Below are positions 55,996-58,828 of a stretch of 64,000 nucleotides of DNA, piece by piece (the first letter of the stretch is position 1; each line of letters opens with the position of its first letter). The stretch is from Halpernia humi (lineage in GTDB: Bacteria; Bacteroidota; Bacteroidia; Flavobacteriales; Weeksellaceae). The translations under genes and the position numbers were made by a program. The stretch covers positions 1 through 64,000 of the forward strand of contig NZ_FNUS01000002.1 of assembly GCF_900108025.1 (NCBI RefSeq). The letters run 5' to 3'. The notes below the pieces were generated by a model. That model saw only the letters and a list, made by a program, of their open reading frames with translations. It was not told where the DNA came from and ran no database searches.

Positions 55996-58392
55996 CTAAA
56001 ATTTAAAATCAACACCTAAATAAATATTTACCGGCATAATCGGCGCATAAACCATTCCCGCATCAAAATAATTTCTAAATGGATTTTGCGCATCCAAAAT
56101 AGGGCGGTTTTGTTTGTAAGAAGTGATATTTTCCGCACCAAGATAAACCCGGAATTTTTCATTAAAATTTTTCGCGATTTGTCCATTCAAAGTAGAAAAC
56201 GCAGAAGATTTTGCACCCAACTGAAATTCTTGCGGATTACTTGCTGTTGTTGGTAAATTTTGCGAACCGACCAAATTGTATGTCAAATCAACCGACCAAA
56301 AACCACCTTTTTCCGTTTTGTTTGTGGCGTAAGACATATTCGCAAAACCTCTGTTTTTAGGGATAAATGGCACTTCTCTTTTACCTGAAATGTAATTTGC
56401 TTGCACATCATAGTATTTATAAGCCAAGCGAAAATCTAAATTTTTTACCAAAGAAAAATCCCATTGCGCTTGGAAACTATTTGCAAAAGAAAAACCTTCT
56501 AAATTATAAAACAAAATTTTCTGCGGCGATTGGTAAAGATCTACCAAAACCTGATGCTGGAAATCGGTTCTGAAAAAATCTAAAATAAAGCTACTTTTTC
56601 TGCGCAGAAACTTAAATTCTTGTACTAAACTCGCGCCAAAATTCCAAGCGATTTCCGGTTTTAAACCATAAATATCACCGCCATTATTTCTTATTTCTAG
56701 TGTTCTGTTTGATGCAAAATATTGCTGATTTTCCGCAAAAATATTTGCCGTTCTAAAACCTCTGCCAGCAGAAAGTCGCAAAGTTGTTTTTGGCGCAATA
56801 TCATATTTAAAATTTATTCTCGGTGTAAATTGTGTTCCCGCCAAATTGTGAAAATCTGCGCGAACACCTGCTACCAAAGTATATTTCACACCAGTTAATG
56901 TATATTCAAAAAATAATCCTGGCACCGTTTCTGTTCTTGTATAATTTTGCGTCAAGTAATTTTCATTGTAAGAATCATACAGAAAACTTGCGCCAGTTTT
57001 AAATTTATTGTTTGTGTTTCCCAAGATTCCTTCAAAAATAAAATTGGAATAATATGAAGTTTCTTTGCCGTCATAATTTCTCAACCCGAAAAAACTGTTT
57101 TGCTGATGAACGGTTAGTTGGTTCATCCAGCCGATACTTTTGCCCGGTTTGTCTTTAAAAATATATCCTGTTTTATTCCAAAATTGGAAACGCGAGGTAT
57201 TGATTCCTACTCCATATAAACTTTGCACATTTTGTGGTTTGCTAAAATCGTAACCTTTTTGTCCGGCATTTCTTTCATCTTTCACATAATTAATTCCAAA
57301 ATGTGACATCAAACCGCTCTTTTCTAAATTATTGAAATCGAGTAAATAAGCCACATTTATTTGGTTGCCTTTTGGTTGGTCTAGAAAACCATCATTATTA
57401 GAATCTCGCTCAGAAAAAGTGCCGTTTCCGTGAAGCAGTACACTTTGCGACCAATGTTCGGAAAGCAATTGTGTTGAAGTTAAATTGATTTCTGTTCGCA
57501 AATTAGAATCTAAAAAAAGATTAATCGCCGTTTCTGGTTTATCTTTGTATTTTAAAAGTTCCGTATTTATTTGTCCTGTGATGCTTTCATATCCGTTTAC
57601 GACGGTACTTCCACCTTTTGTTAATTGTATAGAAGCAATCCATTTCCCGGGAATAAAATTTAAACCATACGCAGCCGATAAACCGTGAACTTGCGGCAAT
57701 TGTTCCTGCGTAATTGCTGTATATTTTTGGTCTAAACCGAGCATTTTCAGTTGTTTAGTTCCGGTTACAGCGTTACTGTAAGATACATCCACAGTTGCGT
57801 TGGTTTCAAAACTTTCAGATAAATTGCAGCAAGCGGCTTTTAGAAATTCTTTTCCGTTCATATTCATCGTTAAACCTGCAGATTTGCTATCAATCGCGGT
57901 TGGATCTTGTAATTTTAAAAGTTTTACGCCTTCTATATTCTGGCTTTTTTCTTTATGATTAGAATGGTCGTCTTGCGCATCCATTTGCATTGAATGATCT
58001 TGTAATATTTTAGAAACAGTCGCGGTCTTATTTGGTAAAAAATCTTCTAGATTTTGTTCTCTATCATACAAACAACAACTTGGAAGATTTTTATAAGCTT
58101 CATCATCTGCTTTGAATTTTTCATTATCGTGACCCACTTGCGCAATTTTTTTTAGAATTTTTTCTAAAGATGTTTTCGCCGGATTGAACTCTATTTGCAA
58201 CACTTTTGTATCAGGAGACCAAACTGCCGTCTCAGCATTCGCGCTTTTCGCTGCGTTTTCTATTCGCGTTTTACATTGCACACAATTGCCATTCACAATT
58301 GCTTTTTCATAAGTTTTAAGATTTTGCGCTGAGAGAATTGTGCAAAATAGAAAGATGAACAAAGGCACAATTTTGCCTAAAATTGTTTTCAT
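55996..58392 (-). CDS. TonB-dependent receptor with N-terminal HMA-like domain
   Basis: This 798-residue outer-membrane receptor is unusual. After the signal peptide (ends ILSAQ) comes a heavy-metal-associated-type domain with GNCVQC (Cys37/Cys40), then Cys-Cys pairs at 106-107 (PSCCLYD) and 188-189 (AACCNLSE). A His/Met-rich stretch lies between them (HSMQMDAQDDHSNHKE). The plug includes LPQVHGLSAAYGLNFIPG, and the beta-barrel runs to an aromatic end (YLGVDFKF). The metal-binding residues suggest copper or a related soft metal. Its neighbour just upstream encodes a small Cys-rich protein. Confidence 0.85.
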   Translation of the reverse strand: MKTILGKIVPLFIFLFCTILSAQNLKTYEKAIVNGNCVQCKTRIENAAKSANAETAVWSPDTKVLQIEFNPAKTSLEKILKKIAQVGHDNEKFKADDEAYKNLPSCCLYDREQNLEDFLPNKTATVSKILQDHSMQMDAQDDHSNHKEKSQNIEGVKLLKLQDPTAIDSKSAGLTMNMNGKEFLKAACCNLSESFETNATVDVSYSNAVTGTKQLKMLGLDQKYTAITQEQLPQVHGLSAAYGLNFIPGKWIASIQLTKGGSTVVNGYESITGQINTELLKYKDKPETAINLFLDSNLRTEINLTSTQLLSEHWSQSVLLHGNGTFSERDSNNDGFLDQPKGNQINVAYLLDFNNLEKSGLMSHFGINYVKDERNAGQKGYDFSKPQNVQSLYGVGINTSRFQFWNKTGYIFKDKPGKSIGWMNQLTVHQQNSFFGLRNYDGKETSYYSNFIFEGILGNTNNKFKTGASFLYDSYNENYLTQNYTRTETVPGLFFEYTLTGVKYTLVAGVRADFHNLAGTQFTPRINFKYDIAPKTTLRLSAGRGFRTANIFAENQQYFASNRTLEIRNNGGDIYGLKPEIAWNFGASLVQEFKFLRRKSSFILDFFRTDFQHQVLVDLYQSPQKILFYNLEGFSFANSFQAQWDFSLVKNLDFRLAYKYYDVQANYISGKREVPFIPKNRGFANMSYATNKTEKGGFWSVDLTYNLVGSQNLPTTASNPQEFQLGAKSSAFSTLNGQIAKNFNEKFRVYLGAENITSYKQNRPILDAQNPFRNYFDAGMVYAPIMPVNIYLGVDFKF

Positions 58393-58448
58393 TTTTTAAG
58401 ATTTAGTTAATTAAAATTGGGCAGACTTCTGCTTTAATGTTGTTTTAA

Positions 58449-58790
58449 TTAAATAAATTTCGGTGGTTGAAAAACGCCTTCTAAATAGGTGTTTGGAAGT
58501 AATTGATGAGAATAAAAGAAAGAAAGTTTCTTTTTAAAATTATTAAAATGATAACATTCTGTAGATATACTTTCCGCAGAATTGATGAATTGAAAAACGC
58601 AAATACTTACACTACAGCAATCGTGAGACGTAGAGTTCTTGTGATTTTTCGCGGGCATATTATTATGACAAACGCTTTGTGATGTGCAACATTTGGCTTG
58701 CGGCATATTTTGCGCCATAAGATTTTGTGTTGGAAGAATTAAAATTCCAACAGAAAAAATAAAGATGAAAAGATTTTGAATATTTTTCAT
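58449..58790 (-). CDS. Small secreted Cys/His-rich protein (HYC_CC_PP-like)
   Basis: The 113-residue protein has a signal peptide (ends LMAQ) and Cys residues at 34, 35, 41, 58, 59, 64 and 79, with several His, ending GVFQPPKFI. Short proteins with paired Cys and a C-terminal PP occur upstream of metal-linked TonB receptors in Bacteroidetes. It is 56 bases upstream of the receptor gene and shares its promoter. It probably binds a soft metal in the periplasm. The family name is given from the pattern, not from a search. Confidence 0.7.
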   Translation of the reverse strand: MKNIQNLFIFIFSVGILILPTQNLMAQNMPQAKCCTSQSVCHNNMPAKNHKNSTSHDCCSVSICVFQFINSAESISTECYHFNNFKKKLSFFYSHQLLPNTYLEGVFQPPKFI

Positions 58791-58800
58791 TTTCTTGTTA

Positions 58801-58828
58801 CAAAGTTAGAAAAAACAGTTAAAAACAA
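58801..58828 (-). promoter_or_regulatory. Promoter of the receptor operon
   Basis: On the minus strand TTG (plus 58826-58828), a 17-base spacer and TAACTTTG (plus 58801-58808) fit the Bacteroidetes promoter with a slightly short spacer. A separate TATTTTTG box (58915-58922) faces the opposite way for the L,D-transpeptidase gene. No palindromic operator was identified. Confidence 0.5.

Follow-up and report, generated by a model that had tools for sequence, protein, structure and literature searches.

What does a small cysteine-rich gene do directly upstream of a TonB-dependent receptor that carries an HMA domain? The question is raised by a stretch of 64,000 nucleotides (nt) of Halpernia humi (contig NZ_FNUS01000002.1, positions 1 to 64,000; hereafter the window, whose positions are used as locus coordinates), in which both genes lie on the minus strand, 56 nt apart. 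An earlier sequence-only reading had proposed a receptor and a secreted partner that together serve the import or sensing of a soft metal such as copper. The soft-metal part of that proposal is supported here, but the small gene is best read as a cis-acting leader open reading frame (ORF) of the CutF/CruR kind rather than as a partner protein. We consider it probable that the two genes form an operon of an HMA-fused TonB receptor and a leader ORF whose nascent, exported peptide reads metal. The leader is preferred over a secreted partner because its body is divergent, its x-P-P-K ending is nearly fixed and its end is coupled in the mRNA to the next start codon; for the same reasons the sensing is probably the work of the small gene and the import that of the receptor. 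The features concerned are:

55996 to 58392, minus strand: TonB-dependent receptor with an N-terminal HMA domain, 798 aa (ORF; Pfam barrel, with Plug and HMA below their cut-offs; relatives).

58449 to 58790, minus strand: leader ORF (upstream ORF, uORF) for a 113-aa Cys-rich, secreted-looking protein ending FQPPKFI; a counterpart lies upstream in 106/106 HMA-receptor loci, window included.

58458 to 58466, minus strand: Pro-Pro-Lys codons near the leader end, the presumed arrest site (invariant in a 23-sequence alignment; K after PP in 104/104 distinct leader proteins).

58801 to 58808, minus strand: TAnnTTTG (-7-type) element just upstream of the leader ORF.

The 106 loci comprise a set of 26, the window among them, and 80 that were taken from named genomes as the top-ranking 80 among 157 relatives found. 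A few are duplicates, and conservation was counted on 105 distinct receptors and 104 distinct leader proteins, many of the latter from close Chryseobacterium relatives. Leaders were sought as same-strand, Cys-containing ORFs no more than 1.5 kb upstream with PP, then K, R or N, near the end; since this ending was required, the constant finding of a leader tests its presence and not its ending, but K was nevertheless found every time. Exactly three residues follow PP in 99 of the 104 proteins, and the residue two before PP is W in 102 and F in two, those of the window and its congener. PP was found in the last six residues of none of 951 control ORFs (at least 100 aa, from the 80 named loci, many mutually orthologous, with 54 ORFs ending in [W/F]xPPK excluded). 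The Pro codons vary silently, so that the ending is kept at the amino-acid level. Elsewhere the protein diverges: P-P-K are the sole invariant columns of the 23-member alignment, whose mean column identity is 29%. The spacing of the last CxxC or CC motif is another constant feature, as it lies 43–45 residues before PP in 83 of the 95 leaders that have such a motif. The candidate promoter element, TAnnTTTG, which we take to be the Bacteroidota promoter consensus, occurs within 150 nt before the leader in 84/106 loci and in 0/85 short intergenic regions.

The Cys/His-rich ORF of 113 residues described by the sequence-only reading is indeed there, with seven Cys (34, 35, 41, 58, 59, 64 and 79) and five His, while the word secreted depends on a hydrophobic N-terminus judged by eye. 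Its product could be a real periplasmic metal-binding partner or scavenger, a metallochaperone in one operon with the receptor, and W-x-P-P-K would then be a docking or processing signal. A secreted-looking, Cys/His-rich protein beside metal genes in nearly all loci read is what such a role would call for. However, the body diverges while only PPK is fixed, Cys-rich and His-rich bodies share one ending, and the coding end coevolves as RNA with the next start, which a partner protein would not need. We therefore regard a partner protein as unlikely in place of a leader; the two roles could coexist.

The mRNA between the two genes is predicted to fold into an outer helix, P1, in which the last codons and stop codon of the leader pair with a segment before the receptor AUG, and which encloses an inner hairpin, P2:

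58443 to 58458, minus strand: P1 5' strand, leader last codons and stop codon (minimum free energy (MFE) fold, z -2.6; cognate-pair tests).

58401 to 58416, minus strand: P1 3' strand, 9–24 nt before the receptor AUG (MFE fold).

58421 to 58432, minus strand: P2, GCAG-AAGU-CUGC (MFE fold; covarying counterpart in Chryseobacterium-type loci).

The z-score of the window belongs to a 91-nt stretch, and the intergenic part alone reaches z -1.2. At least five pairs between the leader and the AUG side were present in the MFE structure of 83/83 distinct intergenic regions of 50–115 nt (mean z -2.86). Across the 26 loci P1 had a median of 13 pairs, and its median span was -10 to +6.5 relative to the final stop-codon base on one side and -26 to -9 relative to the AUG on the other; the stop-codon bases were included in 23, and the partner lay further from the AUG in some. 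To compare loci we used a mismatched-partner test, in which the pairing energy of a leader end with its own next start is set against that with the start of another locus. In 21 loci the summed energy was -216.9 versus -136.3 (standard deviation 10.2) for mismatched partners, and none of 20000 permutations was as low; the 26 HMA-receptor loci, from 23 genera, gave z -7.35 (0/10000 permutations). The two sides of P1 thus coevolve, as true partners beat mismatched ones. Leader and receptor are separated by a stand-alone HMA gene in 13 loci, and in 10 of these, mostly of one genus, the leader end prefers the start of the HMA gene.

For P2, 30 hand-chosen Chryseobacterium-type rows were examined. 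Paired cells amounted to 97.5% versus 93.7% in shuffles, 11 cells had changed on both sides versus 2.7, and the covariation score was 0.282 versus 0.208, each value being reached by 0/500 shuffles. Slid versions of the hairpin pair at most 60%, and RNAalifold recovers it unprompted. P1/P2 could itself be a metal riboswitch or an intrinsic terminator, with the peptide incidental, and a hairpin followed by a T-rich stretch is seen in Chryseobacterium-type loci. Yet no known RNA family was recognized at P1/P2, where the single Rfam match up to E 1 is far below its cut-off. An intrinsic terminator at the window P2 was likewise rejected, since the scan lists its inverted repeat as terminator-like on the plus strand only and not on the transcribed minus strand; and the peptide ending is conserved at the amino-acid level while the Pro codons vary. 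We consider an RNA-only switch of this kind highly improbable.

Endings like that of the small gene were found before other metal genes as well. A profile built from 23 hand-picked leaders matched in 62 of 247 genomes of the class, and at four places in the genome of the window: the present one, an IWQPPKI ending before an AraC-type regulator gene, and IWQPPQLG and IWEPPKI endings before RND pumps (Pfam). Thirty matched loci were read, with neighbours called by eye from translated starts and nine loci checked by Pfam, which confirmed two of three receptors. The next gene encodes an RND pump in nine and a TonB receptor in three, a small gene and then a receptor follow in six, and two are of the window type itself; the remaining ten include six with DUF3347 and one YtkA-like gene (Pfam), two that were left out of the scan, and an apparent P-type ATPase 573 nt away. 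A profile-free search for W-Q-P-P-K codons matched in 147/247 genomes, part of these matches being due to chance, since a reversed control pattern also matches many genomes. Among 30 such loci (one per genome, in listing order), an ORF of 75 aa or more terminates with these codons in 15, and in the other 15 they lie outside any ORF of that length. Of the 15 ORF ends, 11 are followed by an RND pump, one by a receptor and two by a small gene and then a receptor, 14 in all. The bodies that share this ending differ, some being Cys-rich and some His-rich with a single Cys. Bacteria of this class thus seem to place short genes with a near-fixed ending before many metal genes.

Two individual loci are worth describing. 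At L223 (codons at 1501, minus strand) a 97-aa ORF ending in WQPPK has little Cys or His and precedes a 199-aa ORF that is without similarity to the reference metal proteins; here the ending may serve a non-metal signal. In the genome of the window, a copper island (G000 C5:346000-378000; L121, L122) holds the IWQPPKI leader ORF, the AraC-type regulator, a P-type ATPase with HMA, Cus-type pump genes, and two units that each consist of an HYC-type leader, a DUF3347 gene and a Met-rich multicopper oxidase.

These HYC-type leaders belong to a second Cys-rich leader family, HYC_CC_PP (NF047658), in which CC and PP are invariant in 16 aligned members and which is present in 158/247 genomes of the class. 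The two HYC_CC_PP-type genes in the genome of the window (one under the family cut-off) are those that precede a DUF3347 gene and a multicopper oxidase. In the 30 best-scoring loci the next gene is a CusA-type pump gene in 18, a receptor in five, a small HMA gene followed by a receptor in two and an HMA gene followed by a pump in one; four others have weaker matches to metal proteins. The family resembles the window leader in being Cys-rich, in having CC and PP, in its position upstream of CusA, receptors and oxidases and, when pooled, in the same kind of coupling helix. It differs in that its PP lies 12–18 codons before the stop and its helix at the stop codon. The window leader protein had no NCBIfam match up to E 1, and homology to HYC_CC_PP was not found, as only 14 signal-peptide columns align. 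HYC_CC_PP is mentioned in none of the papers listed by a literature search.

The mismatched-partner test was extended to these groups and gave z -6.4 for 16 leader-RND pairs, z -3.0 (18/10000) for 12 other W-type pairs, z -6.1 for 26 HYC-type pairs and, with the groups mixed, z -14.0 for all 80 pairs (0/10000 permutations). For W-type leaders (45 of 52) the pairing signal peaks for 18 nt right after the Pro codons (z -12.8) and is weaker downstream (z -3 to -10). In the HYC type the strongest signal is found at the stop codon (z -8.4) and none at PP (z -0.2), so that a P1 starting at PP is not supported for this family. What can safely be said is that P1 couples the start of the next gene to the point where translation of the leader ends. 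Plain translational coupling would ask for nothing further: the receptor would depend on leader translation through P1, and metal control would act at the promoter or elsewhere, with no sensing by the nascent chain. The anchoring of P1 at the stop codon in HYC_CC_PP leaders agrees with this, but the near-fixed PPK, the 43–45 residue distance from Cys to PP and the metal-gene bias of the family would be left unexplained, and we think it quite improbable that coupling is the whole account.

The leader would control the receptor, in which the following features were located:

58129 to 58287, minus strand: HMA domain, profile match (PF00403, 25.9 bits; two copper-ATPase chain matches).

58273 to 58284, minus strand: HMA CxxC, C37 and C40 (98/105 distinct receptors).

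58072 to 58077, minus strand: Cys-Cys pair C106-C107, end of the HMA unit (100/105).

57826 to 57831, minus strand: Cys-Cys pair C188-C189 in the plug, KAACCNLSESF (105/105; also in four non-HMA relatives).

Together with Cys17 these are the only Cys of the receptor, which is 54–79% identical to the other 104 distinct receptors. Pfam gave 89.3 bits for the TonB barrel, 19.8 bits for Plug (cut-off 23.9) and 20.9 bits for HMA at residues 36–88 (cut-off 24.8), the genome search placing HMA above its cut-off. AlphaFold2 predicts a beta-alpha-beta-beta-alpha unit at residues 27–85, with a predicted local distance difference test (pLDDT) score of 80–88 in the ten-residue blocks 31–110; its model of the whole receptor is poor (mean pLDDT 61, and under 50 in the plug region 120–278). 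Two matches in the PDB were found for the HMA part at E 0.1 or below, both of them copper-transporting ATPases (E 1e-4 and 4e-4). The CxxC site, the borderline profile score and the predicted fold together point to an HMA domain of the ferredoxin-like kind.

The HMA-like domain with Cys37/Cys40 that had been proposed for the N terminus is thereby upheld, and so is the view that it replaces the usual carboxypeptidase-type domain, of which the Pfam scan found none in the window receptor. Replacement is a fair term because a three-HMA relative matches at 69 bits and because L037, a relative without HMA, carries CarbopepD_reg_2. L037 is one of four more distant receptors that lack the HMA unit and are preceded by an HYC_CC_PP leader (L035 and L036, of another family of the order; L037 and L038, of the same family); L038 has a similar-looking extension. 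Loss of the Cys residues in homologues, which would have spoken against a metal role, was looked for and the residues were found to be kept, but of the two Cys-Cys pairs that the sequence-only reading had assigned to the N terminus, C188-C189 lies in the plug and not in the N-terminal extension. The His/Met-richness of the linker is weakly conserved, with His143 in 76/105 and the linker Met below 60%.

Counted before the plug by C..CK and CC.Y/F.R motifs, at least two HMA units by at least one motif occur in 80/105 receptors, two of each motif in 70/105 and three of each in one. The unit duplicates, as is seen at L021:817-3825, where a 1002-aa receptor, the three-HMA relative mentioned above, has its units in tandem. 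In a same-family genome (G014 C7:24207-25303) the receptor is split in two and contains an in-frame stop, which marks this copy as decaying.

A comparison with known copper-linked receptors had been suggested; OprC, the copper TonB transporter of Pseudomonas, is one of these. It shares the TonB barrel fold with the window receptor. By fold the whole receptor matches TonB transporters, and OprC chains are among the Foldseek matches, though not first, so that the fold matches do not single out OprC. An OprC-type CxxxM-HxM site was rejected, since the window receptor has no CxxxM and its one HxM is in the linker; in contrast to OprC it has the HMA domain and the plug Cys-Cys. Among the papers listed by literature searches, none dealt directly with an HMA-TonB copper receptor of Bacteroidota or Chryseobacterium. 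The assignment as a soft-metal receptor is well supported from sequence comparison, by the conserved Cys, the copper-ATPase matches of the HMA part and the presence of same-kind leaders before metal genes, and copper is likely to be its metal rather than zinc. The receptor probably imports this soft metal, which, should the small gene act as a leader, would be the one that the leader senses.

Two known systems resemble the arrangement described here. As far as the consulted parts of PMC9973294 describe it, R. capsulatus CutF-CutO also has a short, apparently exported protein with a Cys/His motif and PP near the C-terminus, a same-strand metal gene downstream and a stem-loop that shields the next start, and Cu is needed to make CutO. 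At 113 aa and with PP followed by three residues, the window leader falls within the CutF-like rules of that paper (<150 aa, PP in the last 15 residues). It differs from CutF in its near-fixed terminal [W/F]-x-P-P-K, in a helix formed from the leader's own last codons and in the receptor or pump downstream. In the CutF-like list of 2023 (PMC9973294) Bacteroidota account for 19% (raw) or 40% (normalised) of the members, and the neighbours include RND pumps and TonB proteins. Some of the present leader proteins may already be in its lists; the word covariation does not occur in the text. The second system, CruR-BfrG/CrtA of Bordetella pertussis, is described in the relevant parts of PMC9426467 and PMC12914433 as a Cu-linked leader ORF upstream of a metal TonB transporter. 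Toeprints of CruR are reported to place its halt with the two Pro codons in the P and A sites. Its CXXC-to-PP spacing of 45 residues, a figure also reported for CutF, compares with mostly 43–45 here. CruR differs in its RAPP ending, Rho-dependent termination and 162-nt intergenic region as those sources give them, whereas the window leader has QPPK, without a C-terminal RAPP (it ends FQPPKFI), and had no DUF2946 (PF11162) match up to E 1. Homology to DUF2946/CruR was not found; a profile-profile comparison aligned the signal-peptide end only (probability 26%). DUF2946 itself occurs in 8/296 genomes of the phylum (L153-L160), and the seven of its proteins that were aligned end in RAPP or RGPP. 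In the portion of the 2025 survey of RAPP/RGPP leaders (PMC12992588) that was consulted, copper-gene leaders are reported as missing from Bacteroidota and receptor-type leaders as present throughout Gram-negatives; leaders of the NSP-stop and NAP-stop kinds, confined to Bacteroidota and located upstream of sec genes, are described in the literature excerpts consulted. A literature text search gave no occurrence of WQPPK, QPPKIG or IWQPP, and the one paper with WNPPK is about titin and unrelated. What appears to be new, beside Bacteroidota CutF-like proteins that were already listed, is the [W/F]-x-P-P-K ending together with the coupling helix.

A possible mode of action can be drawn from these parallels. 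The nascent, exported, Cys-rich leader peptide would read metal, most likely copper. A ribosome held near the Pro-Pro-Lys codons would keep P1 open and leave the receptor start free; where the leader is of the W type, a halt at the Pro codons would place the ribosome over the P1 5' strand. Metal would bind the Cys that lie some 44 residues earlier in the chain, close to the tunnel exit or already beyond it, and release the hold; the ribosome would then leave and P1/P2 would close the receptor start. For an importer the sign would probably be metal poor = on, as in CruR, which we infer from the import role of the receptor and the CruR precedent; for pumps the opposite would be expected, as in CutF. 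Within the receptor, metal could pass from the barrel to the plug Cys-Cys and on to the periplasmic HMA domain.

Several observations weigh against this reading. To our knowledge xPPK alone is not a strong stall. The residue directly before PP is not always Q (Q 98/104, N 3, and H, K and E one each). One sign of control does not account for an ending that is found before efflux pumps as well as before import-type receptors. As to the helix, on average 8% of the shuffles of an intergenic region have at least as many P1 pairs as observed, which means that AT-richness alone makes some of these pairs, and L034 has almost no P1. P1 hardly varies within Chryseobacterium and therefore gives no covariation there, which is why the mismatched-partner test was used instead. 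In that test, six control samples, each with 70 ordinary gene pairs of comparable loci, gave z +0.2 to -2.6, a weak background, and HYC leaders before CusA alone, at z -2.1 (13 pairs, 105/5000), are within this range. Two of the five P2 measures (pairs with double changes, further pair types) did not exceed shuffles. The HYC helix, being anchored at the stop codon, means that P1 proves coupling to the leader end and not arrest at PP. The authors of the CutF study, in the part of PMC9973294 consulted, saw no stalling from the Pro-rich tail alone.

It is possible, and we put this forward tentatively, that the window exemplifies a modular metal control found throughout the Bacteroidota and unrelated in sequence to DUF2946. 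One near-fixed arrest module, W-x-P-P-K-x-x-stop, would be joined to different metal-reading bodies, Cys-rich or His-rich, before importers, RND efflux pumps and DUF3347 and HMA genes; the final codons of the leader would form one strand of a helix that closes the next start, and the dwell of the ribosome would be the metal signal. If so, nascent peptides would tune metal import, efflux and resistance across a major phylum, [W/F]-x-P-P-K would name a candidate arrest motif, and the metal that controls the next gene may be recognizable from the leader body. Reading such genes as leaders would also offer a function for many small Cys-rich proteins now called hypothetical.

A lipoprotein gene was considered as a third component of the window locus and rejected, as no lipoprotein gene with NPPHGQPGHRCDIPVG repeats was found in the genome of the window by a search run without a positive control. 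One lipoprotein with NPPHGQPGHRCDIPVGQPL repeats was scanned and had no Pfam or NCBIfam match over cut-off, and a literature text search for the repeat motif strings gave no occurrence. In 61 of the 80 named loci (L039-L118) the 3 kb preceding the receptor start contain a lipoprotein gene with a SCKKDE-type start and two or three NPPHGQPGHRCDIPVGQPL-type repeats, the product of which is possibly a surface metal-capture protein.

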